IMG/VR virus record: IMGVR_UViG_3300032285_001705
Location: 1-44,026 of that record
Source of the DNA: a virus
Reading direction: 5' to 3' (one strand)
DNA: 44,026 bases
This document shows positions 24,084 to 43,199 of the stretch, piece by piece (the stretch's first letter is position 1; every line of letters starts with the position of its first letter). The notes below the pieces were generated by a model. The model was not told where the DNA came from, searched no databases, and worked only from the letters and a program-made list of their open reading frames with translations. The translations under genes were made by a program, and so were the position numbers.

Positions 24084-24701
24084 TTACTCTTTAATAATGC
24101 GCTCGACCTTGTTTACAGACGGTCCTAAGTGCATTTTTACCATTAAAAGATTGTTATCTCCACTTACATAGAAGTAAGTGCCACCCCAACTCCTTGGTGC
24201 TAGCAATTCCCTCTTGCATCCTTTAGTTAGTCTGAGTTTTTTGTTTGCTTCAGCCCAAGCAATAAATGTTGAGTATTCTTGTGTTGTTTTACCTAAAGTA
24301 ACCCTGTAATCAAAATTAACTTTAGGTAATATTATAGTGTTTTCTTCTAATGAGCTATTGCTTGGTAAACTAACATACTTGACCTGCTCTTTGTCAATAT
24401 TTGCAAGATTTGTAACATCTGCGGCATTATTTGTATAAACTGAAACCCAAGGAGACTCAACTCGAATCTCATAATCTTTCATATTAACTAGATAGTTTAA
24501 CAGTTGTAGTGCATAGTCCAACTGTTCTTGGGTTTTTATTGCATTTTTATATTGACTAGGGCTTTTTAAGTTTATTTTTTGTAACTCATCAAACGCTGAT
24601 CCAAGACGATTGCTTCGTAACAAATTTGATCCGTGGCAGACTAATACAATCTTACACTGATATTTGTTATTGAACAGTCGTCTCGTTGTTTTGATTAGCA
24701 T
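24084..24701 (-). CDS. conserved phage protein, unknown function
   Basis: 205 residues from ATG 24701, with GAAGAA five bases upstream; a TTG at 24719 is possible. It overlaps the 3' end of clpA by 35 bases, so it is read together with it. Features are KIVLVCHGSNLLRS near the start, WVSVYTNNAADV, and a beta-rich C-terminus (TYFYVSGDNNLLMVKMHLG). It is soluble, with no recognised domain. The context suggests co-expression with the ClpA unfoldase. Confidence 0.6.
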   Translation of the reverse strand: MLIKTTRRLFNNKYQCKIVLVCHGSNLLRSNRLGSAFDELQKINLKSPSQYKNAIKTQEQLDYALQLLNYLVNMKDYEIRVESPWVSVYTNNAADVTNLANIDKEQVKYVSLPSNSSLEENTIILPKVNFDYRVTLGKTTQEYSTFIAWAEANKKLRLTKGCKRELLAPRSWGGTYFYVSGDNNLLMVKMHLGPSVNKVERIIKE

Positions 24702-26952
24702 TTTCTTCGTTATTTCCAATAGTCAATAAAGGCACCTTAGGCATTTTCGGTTTAGAAACCAGTGCTATTTTACCATCATTAACAGTAATAGTCAACCATC
24801 CGCCGTTCTTTAAATCACCAAACAGCATTAGTTTAGCTAGATCTCGTTTGATTTCCTTATCAACTACACGATGCAATGGGCGAGCACCCATCTTAGCATC
24901 AAAGCCCATTTCAAGTAACAAGTTAGTAGCATCTTTATCAATCTTAATTTTAATGCCCTTGTCTTTAACTTGATCTCGGACTTCGTCAATAATTTTTTCA
25001 ACAACTTTGATCATTGTTTCTTTACCAAGTTTAGTAAATGTAATGATCGCATCTAAACGATTGCGGAATTCTGGAGTAAAGAACTTTTTAAGTTCCTTGT
25101 CACTGTATTCTTTTTCCTGGGTACCGAAGCCGATCACATTCTTTTCAGCGTCTTGTGCGCCAGCATTGGTAGTAAGAATCAACACTAGGTTGCGACAATC
25201 CGCTTGTTTGCCATTCGAGCCGGTGATAAAACCATTGTCCATCATTTGCAACAATACAGTTGACACATCTGGATGCGATTTTTCAACTTCGTCAAACAAC
25301 AACACAGCATTTGGGTTCTCTTGGATCTGTGTGATTAGTAATCCAGCATTGTCTTCAAAGCCAACATAGCCTGGAGGGCTACCAATTAGCTTAGAGATGC
25401 TGTGCTTTTCTTGATATTCACTCATATCAAAACGTAGCAACTTAACACCCAAGTGTTTGGCAAGACTCTTAGCTGTTTCAGTCTTACCGCAACCTGTTGG
25501 ACCCATGAATACAAAACTGCCAACTGGTTTGTTTTCTGGCTTGAGGCCAGCTTGTGCAACAATAATCTTATCAACAACTTCTTGAATAGCAGTATTTTGC
25601 CCAAACACTTCTTTGTTAATGCTTTCTTGAAGTGTACTGAGATTATGGCTTTCTGTTTCCATTACCCGCTCTTCAGGGATATTAGTTAGTTTAGCAAGCT
25701 CATATTGAATTTCGTACTCACCAATAATACGTTCATCTGCAAGTTTTAAATTAAAGCGTGAGCAAGCTAGATCAATTAAGTCAATAGCTTTATCTGGTAG
25801 TTTCTTATCTGTTTGATACTTGACCGATAACTTAACAGCGGCCTGGATAGCATCGTTACGGATTTTAACATTGTGGAATCCTTCATAGTATTTCTTAATA
25901 CCTTGTAGGATGCTAACTGTCATTTCTTGTGTAGGCTCGTCAACAGTAATGCGTTGGAAACGGCGCATTAACGCACGATCCTTTTCAAAGTGCTTGCGAT
26001 ATTCTTCCCAAGTAGTACTTGCAACAACTTTGATATTGCCTTTGCTCAGTGCAGGCTTCATCATGTTAGCAAGATCGTTAGCAGAGTTACTTGCAGATCC
26101 AGCACCACTAATCATATGTGCTTCGTCGATGAACAGCACAGTCTTGCCTTTTTTCTGCAAACTCTTAATAACCATCTTGAAACGTTCTTCAAAGTCACCG
26201 CGATATTTAGAGCCAGCTAACATAGCTGAGATATCTAAATTGTAAACTGTATAGTCTTTTAAGAAATCAGGAACAGCACCTTTAACAATATTATAAGCAA
26301 GTCCTTCTGCTATAGCAGTCTTACCTACACCCGGATCTCCGACTAAGATTACGTTGTTTTTGCTACGACGTCCTAGAGCTAGCGCAATGTTTTCTAATTC
26401 GTCAACACGGCCAATAACTGGGTCGATTTTATTCTTCTTAACTGCTTCGTTAAGGTTAGTAGTGAAAGCATTTAGAGCTTTATCATTTCCAGCTGGTTCG
26501 ATTTCTTCATCTCCGTCAGTTACTGCATGATTGATATAATCAGCAAATTTATCTTTATCAATATTTGCCTTGGCAACATAATAGTATACCCAACTACGCT
26601 TCTCGCCCATCATGGCAAGGAACACGTCACTTGGTTCTATGCGTTGTCGCCCGTTAAACAATACCTGCGTAAATGCACGATTGAGTACACGTTCAACTGC
26701 TTGTGTTTTTTTAGGTTTAATTACTACATCTGGTACCGTAATTTCTTGGCACTTGTTCTGTAGGTAATCTAGTAATTCTTTTTTCAGACCTTCTGCATCA
26801 GCACCAAAACCCTTAATTGATTCACTAAAACTGTCTTCCATGAGCATGGCGCATAAGATATGTTCTATTGTGAGATATTCGTGGTGTAACTTTTTGGCAG
26901 TGTCAAGAGCCTTTTCGAATACGGCTTGTAAGTTATCACTTGGTTCAACCAT
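24667..26952 (-). CDS. clpA: ClpA-like AAA+ unfoldase
   Basis: 761 residues, near E. coli ClpA (758), and without the ClpB middle coiled coil. An N-domain (1-145) with double repeats is followed by AAA-1 with GDPGVGKT (205-212) and FIDEAH, and AAA-2 with GPTGCGKT (484-491) and LFDEVEK. The loop NVIGFGTQ (607-609 IGF) is in the position of the IGL tripeptide that docks ClpP, so it may feed the host ClpP protease or a phage one outside the window. No clpS or clpP is nearby. AAAGGAAATT precedes the start, which overlaps the deformylase gene. A phage-coded complete ClpA is unusual. Confidence 0.93.
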
Positions 26953-32045: not shown

Positions 32046-32762
32046 ATGAGCAAAAGAGTGAAAAAACGCTTTACATCAGAAGTTAACATAATTGATTTTC
32101 CAACATATCTTCCTCAAAAGAAGAATCGTGTAGTGATTAGCGCACGAAATTCTAACCAAAAGATATACCTTCAGAAACTCCAAGACGAACAAAAAAGTAT
32201 TGTATTTGCTATCGGGCCTGCAGGCACTGGTAAAACCATGCTGGCTGTTCAACATGGAATTAAGTTATTTCAAGAAGGCGTAGTTGACAAGATCGTTGTG
32301 ACAAGACCCGCCGTTTCCGTAGATGAAGATTTAGGATTTTTACCAGGTGACTTAAATGAAAAGATGGCACCATGGACACGCCCTATTTTTGACGTTATGG
32401 GAGAATATTATAAACAATCAGATATAGCAGAGATGCTGAAGGAAGGTGTTATTGAAATAAGCCCACTTGCGTACATGCGTGGACGCACATTTAAAAACGC
32501 ATACATCGTTGCAGACGAAATGCAAAATGCCACAGTCAATCAAATGAAGATGCTACTAACCCGTTTAGGAGAGGGCTCTAAGATGGTAGTAACCGGAGAC
32601 TTAGCACAAGCAGACAGATTAAACGACAACGGTTTGATCAACTTCTGTAACTTGCTCACAGGAAAAAGAGAATTGCAACATATTGATATTGTTCAATTTG
32701 ATGCTCGAGACATCGAACGCCATAATGCCGTGAAGGAGGTGCTTGCGGTTTATGGAGACTAA
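32046..32762 (+). CDS. phoH: PhoH-like ATPase
   Basis: 238 residues with the PhoH P-loop GPAGTGKT (57-64), VTRPAVSVDEDLGFLPG, the Walker B strand YIVADEMQNA and sensor TRLGEGSKMVVTGDLAQ. PhoH proteins are RNA-linked ATPases or helicase-like; in phages they are widespread and the role is debated (phosphate starvation, RNA handling). It is the only plus-strand gene here, convergent with dCMP deaminase and divergent from the lysis unit. AGTAGGAG precedes the start within a structured leader. The N-terminus is a basic tail (MSKRVKKRF) with no KH or PIN domain. Confidence 0.95.
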   Translation: MSKRVKKRFTSEVNIIDFPTYLPQKKNRVVISARNSNQKIYLQKLQDEQKSIVFAIGPAGTGKTMLAVQHGIKLFQEGVVDKIVVTRPAVSVDEDLGFLPGDLNEKMAPWTRPIFDVMGEYYKQSDIAEMLKEGVIEISPLAYMRGRTFKNAYIVADEMQNATVNQMKMLLTRLGEGSKMVVTGDLAQADRLNDNGLINFCNLLTGKRELQHIDIVQFDARDIERHNAVKEVLAVYGD

Positions 32763-33303: not shown

Positions 33304-34116
33304 TTAATTCTCAATCATTAATTGACCGTATACAAAATTAAAATCGTAATAAAAATTCTGTGCGCCAGTTCGGGGTACTTGAGTTTTCCAGTTTCCCTGG
33401 ACTAGTACTCCACTCTCGCTGGCAGTATATCCGTCATATTCGACTCCGTTATGCATGATAGAATTGTCAACTGTGATAATCGCCTTGGTAGTAAAGTATG
33501 ACATGAACCGTAAATTAGCATTGGTCCAGTCGTTAAGTACATCATCCTCTGTTTGATTAAAACCGCGCCACGCATTAGTAGCATGGACTATTAACTGTGC
33601 GCCCTGTAATCTTGCTTTATTTGCTAAACAGTCAACGTGATATCCACCACCCCACATGTCATTGCAAATTAAACCAGCAGTTTTTACCAGTGTGGTAGTA
33701 TGTGGAATGTGTAGTTGTATAAATTGAGGACCATCAGTTGCAGGCACAACTTTTTCATCACCAACTACTGCTGTTTTATTAGCAGTTCCGATTAATGTAC
33801 CTGCAAGATTAAACGCTCGAATTTGGTTCCTACGCAGACCATCGTCGATATACATGGTGCCAAGAAGTAGTCCAGTTTGCTTTTCACGGCAATAATCGAT
33901 TAACTCTTGTTCTGCGGCCAACACATCGTCAAAGGTACGACCTCCTCGAGTGTCAAAATCTGGAATATATCCAGTTAATGCACCTTCTGGTGTTAGCAGG
34001 TAGTCGACTTTATTTTCTGCGGCCCAATCCAGCGAGGCCTTGATTGATGTTACATTTTTAGCAAGGTCAGTGGTGCAGGGCATCTGCGCACCGCCTATAC
34101 GTAGCTTTTCTATCAT
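33304..34116 (-). CDS. carbon-nitrogen hydrolase (nitrilase superfamily)
   Basis: 270 residues. The catalytic triad is in place: Glu44 (LLTPEGALTGY), Lys114 (NKTAV) and Cys151 (GLICNDMWG), with the family order alpha-beta-beta-alpha. Members hydrolyse nitriles or amides, or supply ammonia to NAD synthetase, and include carbamoyl- and omega-amidases. The substrate is not apparent. It sits between clamp loader and dCMP deaminase with ATGA coupling at 34113-34116, a nucleotide-metabolism setting, which is why an amide of a nucleotide or cofactor path is attractive. Confidence 0.85.
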   Translation of the reverse strand: MIEKLRIGGAQMPCTTDLAKNVTSIKASLDWAAENKVDYLLTPEGALTGYIPDFDTRGGRTFDDVLAAEQELIDYCREKQTGLLLGTMYIDDGLRRNQIRAFNLAGTLIGTANKTAVVGDEKVVPATDGPQFIQLHIPHTTTLVKTAGLICNDMWGGGYHVDCLANKARLQGAQLIVHATNAWRGFNQTEDDVLNDWTNANLRFMSYFTTKAIITVDNSIMHNGVEYDGYTASESGVLVQGNWKTQVPRTGAQNFYYDFNFVYGQLMIEN

Positions 34117-35486: not shown

Positions 35487-35903
35487 TTAATCAGGACGGA
35501 AATTAAATTCTGGAGGACTTAGATCAACTGAATCTAAGCCAAATGATACTTCGTTTGGTTTTTCGTCTGATACCATTAACATACAATTAGTATCTACTCG
35601 AAATATTTTACGTTCAGAGCCGTCGTCTTCGATGTACTTGATAGCCCGAGTCCATCGTCCGTGTTCAATGAGGATCCATTGGCCAACTTCAACATCCTGT
35701 TGTTCCGGTCCTACGGCAAACACGCGACCCCATCGAGGTTTAATACCTGCATCTTTACCATCGTCGCTAGGAAGGACAATTCCGCCTTTTGATATTTGTT
35801 CTTCAAAGTTCATGTCAGTAACAAATACATTTTTATGTAATGGGATAAGTTTTCCTGTTACTGCGGGTTTAAACCCAGTATGCCCGATACCTTTTAAATC
35901 CAT
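35487..35903 (-). CDS. 31: GroES/gp31-like cochaperonin
   Basis: 138 residues, longer than GroES (97) and like T4 gp31 (111) with a C-terminal extension (DSVDLSPPEFNFRPD). The opening LIPLHKNVFVTDM, the mobile-loop region (EEQISKGGIVLPSDDGKDAG), RWGRVFAVGPEQQDVEVGQW and the last strand MLMVSDE match the beta-barrel. In T4, gp31 replaces GroES on host GroEL so that the capsid protein folds. It is the last gene of the late unit that contains fibre proteins. Confidence 0.82.
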   Translation of the reverse strand: MDLKGIGHTGFKPAVTGKLIPLHKNVFVTDMNFEEQISKGGIVLPSDDGKDAGIKPRWGRVFAVGPEQQDVEVGQWILIEHGRWTRAIKYIEDDGSERKIFRVDTNCMLMVSDEKPNEVSFGLDSVDLSPPEFNFRPD

Positions 35904-36235: not shown

Positions 36236-36745
36236 TTATCTCAGGAATTCTCGCCAGTCTAAATTATATTTGATGCTGTCTATACTATGAACACCTATTA
36301 GGAATAGCACGTAACTGGCTACACTAGATCCCCGACCTAGCCCCCACACAACACCTTCTTTTGAGCAAGTATCTACAAAATATTTCAACCAGCGCAGTAA
36401 ATCTAGCATGTTTCTTGCTTTGTACGCTTCTAATTCTTCCCTAGTTCTTGTGTAGTTTGGATCCCAAGGCGGACATTGTTCTAATATCCATTCTTCTATA
36501 TCCATAGTTTTGTATTCGTTGGGAATTTGCCAATTACTTTGATGTGCTTGATCATATCCTTCTAGATCGATATCTAGAGTATCAGGATATGGCATTTGAA
36601 AAGTATATTCTAACTGCTGTTCTAATTGTTCCACATCGGGCGTTTTTTCAACAAACAAATCAGAAGACAATGTTTGGCCTTTGTATAAGGCATCAAATAA
36701 ATCTTGTTCGTTAAAAACTGGGTTTGAATACTTGTCTAGGCGCAT
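36236..36745 (-). CDS. fragment-like homologue of bacterial DNA polymerase III alpha (GRGS region)
   Basis: 169 residues. The C-terminal part WGLGRGSSVASYVLFLIGV, continuing HSIDSIKYNLDWREFLR, matches the DnaE stretch 'GvGRGSgagSlvaY.LgIt.iDPl.ynLlFeRFL', which leads into the polymerase active site in DnaE; here the protein stops at that point, so no catalytic aspartates are present. The first 100 residues are unlike DnaE. The stand-alone piece seems conserved in T4-like aquatic phages. It cannot polymerise; it could bind template or host replisome partners (inference). Not coupled to neighbours. Confidence 0.7.
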   Translation of the reverse strand: MRLDKYSNPVFNEQDLFDALYKGQTLSSDLFVEKTPDVEQLEQQLEYTFQMPYPDTLDIDLEGYDQAHQSNWQIPNEYKTMDIEEWILEQCPPWDPNYTRTREELEAYKARNMLDLLRWLKYFVDTCSKEGVVWGLGRGSSVASYVLFLIGVHSIDSIKYNLDWREFLR

Positions 36746-36755
36746 AGCCTATAGT

Positions 36756-36986
36756 TTAATTGACATTTATTAATTTGTCAAGCCCTTTATCGCGATTTGC
36801 CATCATTTTTTCCCAGGCTGCGGCTTGTCTTCGTTGTTGCTCTCTTTTATAATCTTCCAATAAGGCAACAATTTGAGCTTTTACGCCCGGGTTATTCACA
36901 ACAAAATATTTTTTAGTAAGGTCGCCGATCTTTTGATCAAGTTCGGCGTCTTTTAATTGAGAAAAATCGCCAGCTAAAGGATGCAT
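36756..36986 (-). CDS. small helical protein, conserved in T4-like phages
   Basis: 76 residues. MHPLAGDFSQLKDAELDQKI, then a helix with KAQIVALLEDYKREQQRRQA and AAWEKMMANRDKG. It is all alpha and highly charged, probably a coiled-coil dimer. The opening MHPLAGDFS is a recurrent start in T4-like phage proteins near the late-transcription genes; I cannot name a function. It overlaps the fibre gene stop by one base. Confidence 0.65.
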   Translation of the reverse strand: MHPLAGDFSQLKDAELDQKIGDLTKKYFVVNNPGVKAQIVALLEDYKREQQRRQAAAWEKMMANRDKGLDKLINVN

Positions 36987-38431
36987 TAGAATCTTCCAAT
37001 ATATCTCATGTATACAGTTGCGCCGTTGTTAACAGACCACGCTTCGATAACATCTTTCTTGGTTCCAGTACCGGATGTTAAATTAGCTATGGCAGTAGCG
37101 TTCAATCCACCACCACCGTTGATTGACACAGCCGGAGGAGTTGAAGCGTAACCAAAACCTGATGTTGTAACGGTAACAGCATTAATACCAAAATTAAATG
37201 ATGCAATAGCTCCTGATCCAGCTCCGGTTATTGCGTGTAGTCTTAGTGATCCAGTGACTGGAGAAGTAAAGACTCCATTTAATGTTACTACTAAACTTCC
37301 AATAGGGCCAGTTGAACTAGTATACGTTACGCTTACTGGATTAGCACTGGTAGCAGTTGCATTAGCACTCATGACCACAGTGCCTGTGCTGGTATTAATG
37401 CTTAGGATAGTAGTACCGTTAGGTATTCCTGTTCCGCTTACAGTGACACCTGCGGCTAAATTTCTAAAATCAGTAACACCTGTTAGATTTGGAGAACCAT
37501 TGGCTGTAGTTGCTAAGAATGTTGTATTAATAGAACCAACAGTAAACAATACTGTATTGTTATTGGCCACAGTAAGTTGATCTCCTACAGCATATCCGTT
37601 ACCACTACTTAATGCGTCCCAGTAAGTGGTTGCAGTTGCAGGATTTTGATTTGAATGAGCCAACTGAGCTACGTAATACACACCGTTTAAAATAGCAATG
37701 TCACCAATAGCGTAACTAGTTGAATTGTTCCAAGTTAAGCCACCGGAAACTACTGCTGTGGTAATTTTGTAATTTGCCACGGCTGTTGGAGTTACTGCAC
37801 CAGTTACGGGATTGCCACCAGTAAATCCTACAGTAGCTGAACTGGTATATCCACTGCCGACTCCGGTTATGCTTACAGAACTCACACCTTCTTGTCCTTG
37901 AACAATGCCAGGTAATCCTGTATTGGTAAATCCTGGTGGAACTAATGGAAAACTAGAATCGTATACTAGTGTTCCTGCATTTGCAGTAGAAAATACAGGA
38001 GCATAAACTCCTGTTTGATTATTGCCTATGATAACTCTAACAACGCCAACAGTTCCGGAATCTGGCCAATTTGTAAAAGTTAATGTTGCAGATCCTGTTA
38101 AGTTAAACGCTTGAACAGGACCATTGTTTAAATCAATATTTGCTGCCGCAGATACTGAGCCACCGTTAAAATAAACTCCGTTAAACTGACTGAATAGTGC
38201 GTTACTAATTGTACTACCTAGTAAGTTGTTTACAATAGGAGTACCTGCAGATAAATCTGCAATCAATACGGAATTGGTTTGTAGTCCAGTAATTTCTGTT
38301 TTGGCAGTGGCCAAACCTGCTGAAATAGCAGTAAAATTGTCTCTAAAACCCTGGCTGTTATTGTCTTGTCCTGCAACGGGGTAATTTGTTGCTATGGCAG
38401 CATAATTTATTTGGCTGGTTGGTCGTGTCAT
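36986..38431 (-). CDS. tail fibre/structural protein with repeated beta motifs
   Basis: 481 residues, nearly all Ser, Thr, Gly, Asn, Val and Ala. The N-terminus INYAAIATNYPVAGQDNNSQ, then GFRDNFTAI, is an attachment-type head shared by many T4-like aquatic phage fibre proteins; a similar NYPNDG...LRTAFTKVNANF head occurs in 42639-43199. The remainder has repeats such as SITGVGSGYTSSATVGFTGG and VTTSGFGYASTPPAVSINGG with beta-helix or Ig-like character. A role as fibre or baseplate-linked protein is inferred. Starts inside the 3' end of the peroxidase gene (TATGAC). Confidence 0.75.
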   Translation of the reverse strand: MTRPTSQINYAAIATNYPVAGQDNNSQGFRDNFTAISAGLATAKTEITGLQTNSVLIADLSAGTPIVNNLLGSTISNALFSQFNGVYFNGGSVSAAANIDLNNGPVQAFNLTGSATLTFTNWPDSGTVGVVRVIIGNNQTGVYAPVFSTANAGTLVYDSSFPLVPPGFTNTGLPGIVQGQEGVSSVSITGVGSGYTSSATVGFTGGNPVTGAVTPTAVANYKITTAVVSGGLTWNNSTSYAIGDIAILNGVYYVAQLAHSNQNPATATTYWDALSSGNGYAVGDQLTVANNNTVLFTVGSINTTFLATTANGSPNLTGVTDFRNLAAGVTVSGTGIPNGTTILSINTSTGTVVMSANATATSANPVSVTYTSSTGPIGSLVVTLNGVFTSPVTGSLRLHAITGAGSGAIASFNFGINAVTVTTSGFGYASTPPAVSINGGGGLNATAIANLTSGTGTKKDVIEAWSVNNGATVYMRYIGRF

Positions 38432-41400
38432 ACGGTTATCCTATCGTTTCTAAATACTAGGTATTTATCGCTTTGTTTTACCTGGTCGCTAATTATTACG
38501 CTGTCTATAATGTATCGATCTACAGTATAATCTAATAATTTAAAGTCAAAACCACTGTTTTTTATGTTTAAAATAATGTCTGCTGATTTTCCAGGAAGGC
38601 AATAACACAGGGGAACAGCGGCCACGTAACCTAGTTGATCTTTTGTTCCGGGTTGAATAGTTCTCATCCAACTTGGCAAATAGTTACGTTCAGTTTCACC
38701 AACTTTGTTTAGATTAGCTTGCCAGTTGGTTATACTGTTAGGGAAATAGGTATTAGTTTTATAGTTGCTAGCCTCATAGCCTGTGCTATCAATAGTGATT
38801 TGATACTCGGGTCTAGTGCTAGCCGGTGCGTCATTGCTTAGACTGTCTAGAGTATTACTCCAAATATCGTTACTAGCGTCACCGGTGATAGTAGTTGAAG
38901 ATAAACCATCTACTAGAATTTTTCCAGGTAGATACTTTCCATTAGGTTCTCTCGGATCGATCATTTCCACGTATACTACTTCGTATATTGTATTTCCTGC
39001 AGAGTCTAGTGACACTGCTGTTTTTAAAGAACCAAAGTGGAATCGTTTTCTTTTATGATTTAATCCTATGGCAGAAATATAGGCAGCGGCATTCATTGTT
39101 TCGATACCAGCGTAGATCAGCATGCTCAAACTAGACTGCAATCCAAACGCTGGATCATTTGGTCGATATATACTGCTGGATGTGAATATATTAGAATTAT
39201 TAATAAAATTCTTCCAAATCTTGCGCTGGCTTAGATCCATTAATGGTTGCACTTTTATGTTGCTGTAATTTAGGTCATTAGGGGTATTAATTTTTAGGGT
39301 AAATGTTTTTTCGCTGGCTATTTGATTAAAGGTGTCAGCGGCCTTGACTGTAAATGTATAGACCTTGTCAAACGTGGTCAAACCTCTATCAAAGCTAATC
39401 ATCTTACCGTCGAAGGATATTATACCAGGACCAACATCTGCATTATAATATTGATTTGGTTTTCCTATAATTTCGCCGTCTGGGTTTAAGGTCAATCCGT
39501 TGGGCAAATTACCGCTTACTAACAGATAAGTTATAACGGATGTTGTTTTTTTAGTAGTTGCAGAAATTTTTAAAGTTGAAAGATAATTTGCGTCAATGCT
39601 ACCTAAATCTGCAGAAGTGTCCCATGTAATAGAACTGTCAATCTCTCCGATGATTTTAATTGTAAATGTTCTTGAAGCACTTAATGAATCACCGGAATTT
39701 CCAAAACGAGTAGCTACTACTGTGAATGTAAATGTTCTAGTGATTGCTGGTTGGTAGGGAATTACTCCGTAAAGTTCGCAGTTGTTTACATTGAAGTTAA
39801 TACCAGGAGGTAAACTAATAAGCGATCCGATATAAAATTCAGTTTTATCTGGAACAGTGATCAGTAAGTTTGATTGCAGGGTTAGTCGATAAACACCATT
39901 GCCTAAATTAGCCACACTGGTAATTAAATATTTGTCTTCCCCAGCAGTGGAGATATAGTTGTCAAAGCTGACATATTGTCCAGTAACTGGAACGCCGATA
40001 GTATCGTGGATTGTTAAGTGGTTGCCACCTACTTTGTTGTCAGTGCTTAAAACTTTATAAGCCACAGCAAACACTTCTTGATTAGTTGCATCTAATCTAA
40101 AAAGAACTTCGTTTTTATTATATAATGCCAGCGGAACAGTTAGATAGTTGTTTGCTCTATGTGTGCCCAAATCTGGATTGGTTAACCAAGCGGGCCTTCT
40201 AATATAGGTAACGTCAGCAGTGAATAAACCGCCCATGAATCCGTCTAATGCTGTAGTGTCAGCTCTAAAGGTATCATCACCTACTACAAAAATTCTAAAC
40301 AACCGTTGAGCATAGTTGATGCCATCAGTTAAGGTAACTTTAAATTGATAGTTTCTACTAAGCGTTACTGGAGTAGTGTCTGTTAGTGCATGGTCATAAA
40401 AATCGTCATCGAACTGCTTTAAATCGTAACCATCAACGGTACTAGAATTTGTATTAGAACCAAAATCATAAGCAATAGCATCGAATATACTTTCGTCATA
40501 TGTACCAGTACCATCTGCGGGTGTAATTTTAATATTAGGTTCGATGAACCCACTAATCACACCTGCCGAACTAAGAGTCAGTCCTGGAGGCAATTCGCCA
40601 TCGCCTGACAGAATTGAATAATTTAAATTTAATCCGGCTGCGGTGTTTAGATCAAATGCTTCGATCTGATAATTGATCACAGTTTGATCTAGTGCGTATA
40701 ACTGTTGATGTACTCCTACAGCAAGAGCCCCACTGGGCGTTATAAAGGTTGGTACATTGTTTCCATCTATTGTCATGGAAAATGTTCTATCTGCAATATC
40801 AATACCGTTACTGGCACGTATGCAAAAACTATAAGTTGTTACATTATTGGTTATGAACGGATTACCCTGTATTCTTGTCCCCTCTAAAAACAATCCAGAA
40901 GGTAGCGATCCACTAATAACTTTGTAAGTAAATGCCGCTGGATCCGTAGCGGGATAATTAACGCCTCCGGCAGTATCAGTTGTAATGTAATCAACACCAT
41001 TTATAGCAGTAGGCAAATATAAATCAGAACGTTCAACAGCTACAAACGCATCGAGTTGCATGCGAACAGTATCAGTGTTTCTAAGTATAATTTTCGATAA
41101 TGTTTGAGATTGCAACCAGTCAAAGTCTCCAAGTGCCCATGGCTGGTTTTCCCAGTATAGCGCATCACCATCGCGTAGTCTTATCATCTGGCTTGATATG
41201 ATATTTTGAAAAGTTTGTCCTACCATAGCACCGGGAACTGGAGTTTCGGCTAACCCTCCGACCCACAAATCGATATTATTAATATTAGTATATGCAGTTT
41301 GTAAAGCGGAAGCTACTACGCTGTCTGTAGTTATTTGACTAAATGAAGTGTACGCCGATAATCCTAATGCTGTACGCATTTGATTTAAACTTGGTAATCC

Positions 41401-42639
41401 AGCATCACGTCCACGTTGTATATTAGTTGCGGCAAGATCCATTGCGGCAGGCGGATCATTTAATAAATTACGCAAGTCTTCAATGATATGTACATCTAAT
41501 TTATTACTGATGTCGCTGGCTAATTTACGAATAAATCCGTTCGCACCACCGTTACGTTCGTATAGATCCGGAGTTAAAAAGAACGCCTGAGATAATGTTA
41601 GTGATTCGGTAATGTTACCCTGTTCGTCTACTCGATCCTGTGCACCTGATACAATACTATGACCAAATCTCATTGCTGCCACAGCAAACTCTACAGTTAC
41701 GCTGGCATCGATATTTGTTTTAAAACCTGTATATGCCGGAATAGTTGAAGCACCGACAATCTTCGGCAACCATTCTTTATATGTTATATTTTGAAATTCG
41801 GCAATAACTATGTTGCGAGCACGTTGATATAGTTGCTCGCCACTCCAGTCAGGATGTAGTACTTTTAATCTGTCTACATGCCAGTTATGTTCTCTGATGA
41901 ATAGTGTTTGTATAGACGTTAAATCTGGATTTTCTGTGCCTCGAGGATCTCCAAATACAAAACTATTATTAACAACAGGTGCATATTGTCCATTAGAGCT
42001 GGTAGACAATTTGCCAGTAGTTGCAGTTTGACCGCCTTCTCTTAAATTAATAGGATTTTGAAATGGTGTAGGGCCTTGCGGTACACCTGGAGGATAGGCA
42101 AGTCCATAAACAACACTACAATCTATCCAGCCAGTGACATCATTTATTGGCAGTGCTGTATGACCAGCTATACCTGTTCCTGGGGCAATAGCACTACGAT
42201 TAACTGGAATATGACTTCCGGGAGTTAAATTAGTGTCACCTGCCGGCACAACAACATCTATGTTAGTACTACCAGGTCGAGCAAATTCTAAATCGTGTGT
42301 CAAAAATTGTCCAAATGCATACATGAAACCACTATAGCCGTTTGGATCTGCTTGGTTACCTTGATTAACTTGATCCCACACTACTAAATTACTAACAGTG
42401 CGAGCATTAGGCAAATCATTACGCATTTGATAAATGCCGTCTACATAACTGTTTACAGCATTACGAATAAAAGGGGCACCGGCACTATTTCGTAAAGGAG
42501 CAACCGGATGATGTCCTTGCCCGGTATAACTGGGATTAGTTAATACCCCGCTAATAGGTAAGGCAATATTTACTGATGTTTGTTCAGTAAAAGTGCCGAG
42601 ACTTGCTCCCGACGGTTTTGTCCATACATCTAAAGCCAT
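38428..42639 (-). CDS. giant structural protein with N-terminal animal-type haem peroxidase domain and He_PIG/Ig-like repeats
   Basis: 1403 residues. Residues about 45-545 are an animal haem peroxidase domain: FGQFLTHDLEF (distal His115, Gln111, Asp116), WIDCSVVYG, DPRGTENPDLTS (Arg233, Glu236), RFGHS (proximal His327) and NIQRGRDAGLPS (Asn406). All match myeloperoxidase residues (His95, Gln91, Arg239, Glu242, His336, Asn421) except that the haem-ester Asp94 is Thr114. After it come putative-Ig repeats with SGSLPSGLFLEG, LPPGLTLSSAGVISG and SGNLPNGLTLNPDGEIIGKP, then a C-terminal part that looks like large structural proteins of T4-like aquatic phages. It would oxidise halide or organics with peroxide at the particle surface. 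No signal peptide. Confidence 0.88.
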   Translation of the reverse strand: MALDVWTKPSGASLGTFTEQTSVNIALPISGVLTNPSYTGQGHHPVAPLRNSAGAPFIRNAVNSYVDGIYQMRNDLPNARTVSNLVVWDQVNQGNQADPNGYSGFMYAFGQFLTHDLEFARPGSTNIDVVVPAGDTNLTPGSHIPVNRSAIAPGTGIAGHTALPINDVTGWIDCSVVYGLAYPPGVPQGPTPFQNPINLREGGQTATTGKLSTSSNGQYAPVVNNSFVFGDPRGTENPDLTSIQTLFIREHNWHVDRLKVLHPDWSGEQLYQRARNIVIAEFQNITYKEWLPKIVGASTIPAYTGFKTNIDASVTVEFAVAAMRFGHSIVSGAQDRVDEQGNITESLTLSQAFFLTPDLYERNGGANGFIRKLASDISNKLDVHIIEDLRNLLNDPPAAMDLAATNIQRGRDAGLPSLNQMRTALGLSAYTSFSQITTDSVVASALQTAYTNINNIDLWVGGLAETPVPGAMVGQTFQNIISSQMIRLRDGDALYWENQPWALGDFDWLQSQTLSKIILRNTDTVRMQLDAFVAVERSDLYLPTAINGVDYITTDTAGGVNYPATDPAAFTYKVISGSLPSGLFLEGTRIQGNPFITNNVTTYSFCIRASNGIDIADRTFSMTIDGNNVPTFITPSGALAVGVHQQLYALDQTVINYQIEAFDLNTAAGLNLNYSILSGDGELPPGLTLSSAGVISGFIEPNIKITPADGTGTYDESIFDAIAYDFGSNTNSSTVDGYDLKQFDDDFYDHALTDTTPVTLSRNYQFKVTLTDGINYAQRLFRIFVVGDDTFRADTTALDGFMGGLFTADVTYIRRPAWLTNPDLGTHRANNYLTVPLALYNKNEVLFRLDATNQEVFAVAYKVLSTDNKVGGNHLTIHDTIGVPVTGQYVSFDNYISTAGEDKYLITSVANLGNGVYRLTLQSNLLITVPDKTEFYIGSLISLPPGINFNVNNCELYGVIPYQPAITRTFTFTVVATRFGNSGDSLSASRTFTIKIIGEIDSSITWDTSADLGSIDANYLSTLKISATTKKTTSVITYLLVSGNLPNGLTLNPDGEIIGKPNQYYNADVGPGIISFDGKMISFDRGLTTFDKVYTFTVKAADTFNQIASEKTFTLKINTPNDLNYSNIKVQPLMDLSQRKIWKNFINNSNIFTSSSIYRPNDPAFGLQSSLSMLIYAGIETMNAAAYISAIGLNHKRKRFHFGSLKTAVSLDSAGNTIYEVVYVEMIDPREPNGKYLPGKILVDGLSSTTITGDASNDIWSNTLDSLSNDAPASTRPEYQITIDSTGYEASNYKTNTYFPNSITNWQANLNKVGETERNYLPSWMRTIQPGTKDQLGYVAAVPLCYCLPGKSADIILNIKNSGFDFKLLDYTVDRYIIDSVIISDQVKQSDKYLVFRNDRITV
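38462..38469 (-). promoter_or_regulatory. possible late-type octamer within the 3' end of the peroxidase gene
   Basis: GATAAATA on the minus strand, 31 bases before ATG 38431. Its 15-base context (CAAAGCGATAAATAC) is the same as at 24059-24073, in front of another virion unit. It is inside codons (Ser-Asp-Lys-Tyr), so it may be partly chance. Confidence 0.35.
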
Positions 42640-43199
42640 TAGACAATTGTTCCAAAGTCAATTTGATTTGACAATGGGTTATCGGTGAATAATCCCATGT
42701 CTAGTGGATAGCCGTGAAAATTAGTAGCTTCTCCAACCGCAGACATGTCTGCCGCTGGGCATAAATCGATAACAAGCGTATTTGATTGCATGGCTATTTG
42801 TAATAAAGAACTGATAATAGAAATATCATAACCATAAACAGTTGATTGTACGTCTCCTGGCCCGTGGATAACGTTACCGTTTAATCCCAAGGCGGCACCT
42901 AGAGACGGATTTGGATCATTGAATAGAGTAGTGATTGTTTTTAAATCAACAACGTTTGAAGTACTAGTAATGTCAACGCTGTTGTCACTACTGATCAACG
43001 TACGAAATTCTAAGTTAGAACCGTTAACGTCTGCAAATACAGAAGTACCAGCACCTAAGTTTGTTCCACCTGTAACACCTAACGCTAGTTTGAGGGTGTT
43101 AAAGTTGGCATTGACTTTGGTAAATGCTGTGCGTAAATCGTCACCTGTACCGTCATTTGGGTACTGTCCTAAATTGATTGTCTGTAGTATAGTGGTCAT
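42639..43199 (-). CDS. tail fibre-like structural protein
   Basis: 186 residues. The opening TINLGQYPNDGTGDDLRTAF, continuing TKVNANFNTLK, is a recurrent attachment head of tail or baseplate-linked proteins in T4-like aquatic phages. The rest is beta-rich and Asn/Ser-rich. It overlaps the start of the peroxidase fusion by one base and has a late-type octamer 19 bases upstream, so it is probably expressed late with the peroxidase and the 481-residue protein. No catalytic motif. Confidence 0.75.
   Translation of the reverse strand: MTTILQTINLGQYPNDGTGDDLRTAFTKVNANFNTLKLALGVTGGTNLGAGTSVFADVNGSNLEFRTLISSDNSVDITSTSNVVDLKTITTLFNDPNPSLGAALGLNGNVIHGPGDVQSTVYGYDISIISSLLQIAMQSNTLVIDLCPAADMSAVGEATNFHGYPLDMGLFTDNPLSNQIDFGTIV

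Follow-up and report, generated by a model that had tools for sequence, protein, structure and literature searches.

Phage tails are known to carry enzymes. Tail-spike depolymerases and virion-associated lysins are displayed on the adsorption apparatus and are often exchanged by recombination; to our knowledge, they are hydrolases, lyases or esterases that cleave polymers by hydrolysis or elimination, and none is a haem redox enzyme. Sinorhizobium phage Phosso (gp119, L024) and Agrobacterium phage Atu_ph07 (gp329, L172) encode a subtilase fused to the same scaffold, of Ig repeats and a conserved C-terminal module, as the protein described below. In the peroxidase-cyclooxygenase superfamily, an X-G-Q-X-X-D-H-D motif with an ester-forming Asp is typical, except in families 4 and 7 (PMC4420034). 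Bacterial relatives of the present domain include MopA, a haem- and Ca-dependent Mn oxidase that is not stimulated by peroxide (PMC6247904), and PepA, which, as cited within that article, was reported to be a poor peroxidase with a Km for H2O2 of 13 mM.

We analyzed a window of 44,026 bases, the whole stretch of the IMG/VR virus record IMGVR_UViG_3300032285_001705. Judging from its sequence and that of its relatives, a group of giant bacterial viruses carries a complete and apparently working animal-type haem peroxidase inside an Ig-like protein. The gene runs uninterrupted from an ATG to a stop codon and is composed of the following parts:

38428..42639, minus strand: whole fusion gene, a tail-type Ig-repeat scaffold with an inserted haem peroxidase, 1403 aa (intact reading frame; An_peroxidase, He_PIG)
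42550..42639, minus strand: scaffold N-terminus, residues 1-30, predicted first strands of a split Ig domain (motif common to peroxidase-free relatives; strands 12-18 and 23-26 in the model)
40954..42549, minus strand: inserted peroxidase cassette, residues about 31-562, with the Pfam domain at 37-532 (missing from peroxidase-free relatives; Pfam; AlphaFold model)
38428..40953, minus strand: remaining scaffold, residues 563-1403, with further Ig (He_PIG) repeats and a conserved C-terminal module (identity to scaffold relatives)

The Pfam family PF03098 (An_peroxidase) matches residues 37-532 over profile positions 3-530 of 530 (E 6.2e-115; 385 bits, the cut-off being 25 bits), and He_PIG Ig repeats match four stretches, the best of which covers residues 544-624. 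No other Pfam family scored above its cut-off in the fusion protein, including any polymer-degrading domain of the tail-depolymerase kind (CBM49 fell below threshold), and neither PHROGs nor NCBIfam contained a model for it. The initial annotation of this DNA had proposed an intact animal-type haem peroxidase fused to a phage structural-type protein, with He_PIG-type repeats after the peroxidase. The repeats were recovered, and the fusion is supported by profile, structural model, conservation, selection and synteny. Its layout is refined here: residues 1 to ~30 are part of the scaffold and not of the peroxidase, which is an insert that many relatives lack.

A structural model, one of the checks named with that annotation, predicts a peroxidase fold. 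The AlphaFold2 model of residues 1-640, built from 70 sequences (15 phage and 55 bacterial relatives), has a mean pLDDT of 89.4 and a pTM of 0.83, with pLDDT mostly 88-98 across the Pfam domain; when the 15 phage sequences were used alone the peroxidase was modelled poorly (pLDDT 38.7), which was solved by adding the 55 bacterial relatives. Foldseek matched the model to the Cyanobacterium TDX16 peroxidase (PDB 8s6c; TM 0.90, rmsd 2.0), to DdPoxA (TM 0.85) and to myeloperoxidase (TM 0.81), so that the full-length profile match is accompanied by the predicted fold of the superfamily. Strands at residues 12-18, 23-26 and ~570-625 were predicted with fair to good confidence in both AlphaFold models, as would be expected if the insert interrupts a single Ig domain.

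A scan of viral contigs returned 22 peroxidase-bearing loci with 64-96% identity on contigs of up to 265 kb, and seven more contigs of the clade (L312 and L322-L327, L323 being a fragment) as well as a free-standing copy (L335) came from a scan with looser settings; because several loci are near-copies, independent events are fewer than the locus count. Exactly one peroxidase was present in each of six long peroxidase-bearing contigs examined. As the fusion gene comes from a metagenomic contig only, it might have been an assembly chimera or a stray bacterial gene, but the same fusion, whole or as a truncated end, recurs on nearly 30 further contigs of up to 265 kb, frames in the peroxidase-bearing loci are uninterrupted except at contig ends, and the junctions and neighbours are conserved across other contigs. 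We consider this explanation vanishingly improbable, an assembly chimera being ruled out by the independent contigs with the same fusion.

The phage scaffold named in the initial annotation proved to be a phage protein family, which several hundred further viral-contig stretches encode: the C-terminal module alone retrieved 416 relatives as a query, and a second query retrieved 528. Most of the scaffold proteins read lack the peroxidase and are typically about 790-1100 aa long. They open with the N-terminal motif of the window protein (MALNIWTQPSGYSFGTFQEQ...LP) and align to window residues 1-30 and 563/571-1403 with nothing between; over residues 563-1403, close peroxidase-free relatives are 57-59% identical to the window protein. 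Together with the modelled strands, these alignments show the peroxidase as an insertion into the predicted first Ig-like domain of the scaffold. A second site is used in L324-L327, whose divergent scaffold carries the peroxidase in its final Ig domain; L248, a relative of theirs, has this scaffold but no peroxidase. Seven long relatives, from a total of 135 that are complete, were scanned for other enzymes in the scaffold slot and, the Phosso and Atu_ph07 subtilases apart, showed no recognisable one.

Comparisons between closely related loci show, at the sequence level, that the peroxidase behaves as a cassette that is swapped in and out by recombination. The window and L002 share 95.6% nucleotide identity over codons 45-540 and 58.9% past codon 575, with a sharp break at about codon 571, and L006 and L007 follow the same pattern. 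L007, which has the peroxidase, and L074, which does not, are 97.9% identical across 7.8 kb downstream and 92% identical over 120 bp at the gene start, and they differ by a cassette of roughly 1.6 kb; with this natural near-isogenic pair, the question of what the cassette confers is directly testable. On a tree of the scaffold C-terminus, peroxidase presence requires 10 changes, eight of them forced by well-supported branches, although this is a quick tree and recombination of the scaffold may inflate the count. In informative pairs, dN/dS of the peroxidase is about 0.05-0.18 (the nearly identical L013/L017 pair is uninformative), values that show purifying selection on these sequences. The peroxidase is patchily distributed, more in the manner of host-interaction modules than of structural parts.

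The nearest cellular relatives of the domain, which are 36-51% identical, occur in Synechococcus/Cyanobium, Mycobacterium, Bradyrhizobium, Acetobacteraceae and others, and mostly have RTX-like repeats after the peroxidase domain. By sequence, the scaffold-fused phage peroxidases are akin to these secreted bacterial RTX peroxidases. In the phylogeny against bacterial peroxidases, which the initial annotation had also envisaged, they form one clade with support 100/100, and still do so when the second-site copies are added. No bacterial donor was singled out in two trees, between which the sister group differs. Synechococcus UW140-type MAG peroxidases (L104, L107, L111) nest inside a Mycobacterium group (L106-L115, L166, L169), which suggests either that the gene crossed between phyla or that contigs were mis-binned. 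The free-standing copy, a 482-aa An_peroxidase on a different phage-like contig (L335:4869-6314, plus strand), falls outside the scaffold-fused clade; it keeps Asp94, and its Asn406 is replaced by Asp.

The haem pocket is represented by the following features:

42292..42309, minus strand: distal motif Q111-F-L-T114-H115-D116, with the distal His and Gln, Thr replacing the ester-forming Asp, and the Ca-ligand Asp
42115..42135, minus strand: Ca-binding loop T169-x-W171-x-D173-x-S175
41929..41943, minus strand: R233-x-x-E236-N237, with the catalytic Arg and the remaining ester-forming Glu
41659..41661, minus strand: proximal haem ligand H327
41422..41424, minus strand: N406, partner of the proximal His

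The six residues previously reported to be in place (Q111, H115, R233, E236, H327 and N406) are all invariant in the phage homologues that cover them (n=23, 23, 23, 23, 22 and 20, respectively, counts that include some near-copies). Bacterial relatives have the same pocket residues, N406 being kept in 65/67, and the distal His/Gln, catalytic Arg, R-x-x-E and proximal His with Asn of the superfamily are therefore complete. The observation that Asp94 of myeloperoxidase is Thr here, with the loss of one haem ester residue, also holds beyond the window. The corresponding residue, Thr114, is Thr in every scaffold-fused phage copy read at this position, whereas 67/67 bacterial relatives carry Asp; losing the Asp is therefore a derived feature that marks the phage clade as a whole. 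The X-G-Q-X-X-D-H-D motif with its ester-forming Asp is accordingly absent from the scaffold-fused peroxidases, which, on sequence grounds, bears on their placement in families 1-3 and not on superfamily membership. The Ca ligand D116 is Glu in 12/23 phage copies; the two changes may mean that stability or redox potential differ. The phage domain also has an extra conserved loop after the Ca site (AYPPGVPQG in the window) and no conserved cysteines, which would suit folding in the cytoplasm. The suggestion that haem comes from the host, the phage having no visible haem-loading gene, gains from the absence of ferrochelatase in 11 large contigs of the phage group, a result that fits host supply.

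The loss of Asp94 across the whole clade and the long stem branch of that clade (0.72) would suit a domain that is enzymatically dead and serves as an adhesin-like binding or spacer module on the particle, and insertions in Ig scaffolds are often binding modules. We nevertheless consider this unlikely. Phage copies that have diverged at about 30% of positions still agree in every one of these pocket residues, and the peroxidase is more conserved than the scaffold and is the best-conserved part of the protein, above all in the stretch 321-440 that contains the proximal His. Moreover, the HMMER alignment places Ile opposite Asp94 in DdPoxA, a homologue of solved structure.

The fusion gene overlaps tail-type genes at both ends:

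42639..43199, minus strand: upstream gene with a T4 gp9/gp10-like N-terminus, baseplate/tail-fibre connector type, whose stop overlaps the fusion gene start (PHROG 677, E 1e-8)
36986..38431, minus strand: downstream gene with a T4 gp10-like N-terminus, fibre type, whose start overlaps the fusion gene stop (N-terminus homology)

A homologue of the upstream gene lies near the scaffold in nearly all loci, and the N-terminus of the downstream gene has homologues in the genes next after the scaffold in Phosso and Atu_ph07. Among named phages, these two have the most similar DNA polymerases (48.7% and 44.6% identity, respectively). As in a gp329-type scaffold, the He_PIG repeats and the conserved C-terminal module are present (E 5.5e-18; residues 563-1403 are about 25% identical to gp329 and gp119) and the next gene has a T4 gp10-like N-terminus. 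In the published Atu_ph07 particle proteome, most virion proteins fall into three clusters, one of which is CDS 284-329 (PMC6102473); gp329 is the last gene of this cluster, which is rich in MS-detected particle proteins, and we infer that gp329 itself was among the proteins detected. By analogy, the fusion protein is probably on the particle exterior. The description of the peroxidase as virion-bound thus gains indirect support from scaffold homologues, tail-gene neighbours and the Atu_ph07 cluster, the location itself being a probable one.

Since this location is read from relatives, the protein could instead act inside the infected cell or be released at lysis, outside the particle. This seems quite unlikely in view of the stop/start overlaps with two tail-type genes, the position of scaffold homologues in tail regions and that of gp329 at the edge of the particle-protein cluster; furthermore, the scaffold is retained in most of the relatives read, with no enzyme that can be recognised in it.

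Upstream of its tail-type genes, the window also encodes a cysteine protease of the papain family (C1; 43226-44014, minus strand). Its relatives lie upstream of the scaffold in L025, L043, L047, L051, L053 and L057, and it is 90% identical in L025 although the scaffold is only 59% identical there. A 169-aa gene (36236-36745, minus strand), whose match to DNA polymerase III alpha is limited to a piece of 71 residues, lies close to a GroES-like (Cpn10) gene (35487-35903, minus strand), and small genes like these come after the scaffold in L324 and L326. Genes for a carbon-nitrogen hydrolase (33304-34116, minus strand), a PhoH-like protein (32046-32762, plus strand) and a ClpA/ClpB-like ATPase (24667-26952, minus strand) are in keeping with a jumbo-phage fragment. 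The cyanophage host marker psbA was absent from 11 contigs.

The explanation that we favour, and hold to be somewhat probable as a whole, is a jumbo myovirus-like tail or baseplate protein whose first Ig domain is split by a mobile peroxidase that oxidises the host surface. The domain would have been captured once, probably from a secreted bacterial RTX-type peroxidase, would have lost Asp94 and been inserted into an Ig domain of a tail-type protein, and would since have passed from phage to phage by recombination, as a cassette kept under purifying selection. The fusion protein would probably fold in the host cytoplasm and take up host haem, anchored by Glu236 and His327, and after lysis the peroxidase would be displayed on the particle. 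Most likely, it would then act as a virion-displayed oxidase at the surface of the next host, where environmental or host-derived H2O2 would be used for surface oxidation. Substrate and benefit can be guessed at: candidate targets are phenols, halides or pseudohalides, or Mn, and their oxidation might aid adsorption or penetration. The roles put forward in the initial annotation, namely production of hypohalous acids, oxidation of surface polymers and removal of peroxide, are candidate alternatives. The poor peroxidase activity cited for PepA would, by analogy, count against an active oxidase; equally, with MopA not stimulated by peroxide and PepA described in that citation as a poor peroxidase, peroxide need not be the natural oxidant.

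The displayed peroxidase might mainly remove or buffer H2O2 around the particle or the newly infected cell and so protect it. Every peroxide-reacting residue is kept, and the cassette varies between near-identical phages, as a niche-dependent trait would. We regard such protection as rather unlikely, however: the small number of copies bound to a tail would use up little peroxide and depend on a reducing substrate, and a free protein would be equally good, yet the domain is kept in a tail-type scaffold at two sites. A haem peroxidase on the tail would bring oxidation into the chemistry of phage entry and make infection depend in part on how much peroxide and haem the habitat supplies; it would also establish that a widespread jumbo-phage protein family has a slot for exchangeable enzymes.

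No match to the peroxidase domain was found among the phages of INPHARED, a GenBank-derived collection, nor did we find a report of such a phage peroxidase in the open-access literature. Among predicted viral structures (BFVD), where no named phage haem peroxidase appeared among the matches, the sole close full-length match is that of Orpheovirus; it is virus-encoded and has the same fold, but belongs to an amoebal giant virus and is only 23% identical. With myeloperoxidase, lactoperoxidase, DdPoxA and 8s6c of the peroxidase-cyclooxygenase superfamily, the phage copy shares the full-length domain, predicted fold, pocket residues and Ca loop, and differs in Thr for Asp94, the extra loop, the embedding in an Ig scaffold and the lack of conserved cysteines. 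Secreted bacterial RTX-type peroxidases (MopA/peroxicin type) have the same pocket at 36-51% domain identity, but mostly carry C-terminal RTX (haemolysin-type Ca-binding) repeats and always Asp94, whereas the phage copies have neither and continue into He_PIG repeats and the phage C-terminal module.

Atu_ph07 gp329 and Phosso gp119 likewise carry an enzyme domain on the same scaffold family, followed by the same type of gene, in the jumbo phages that, among named ones, come closest to this phage by DNA polymerase; their enzyme, however, is a subtilase at the N-terminus. These fusions suggest a general enzyme-display protein. We put at about even the chance that jumbo-phage tails bear an active haem peroxidase as a redox weapon on an Ig scaffold that is a general display platform with exchangeable enzymes. 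The proposed display on the adsorption apparatus and exchange by recombination would resemble those of tail-spike depolymerases and virion-associated lysins, among which a haem redox enzyme, if confirmed, would represent a new chemistry.
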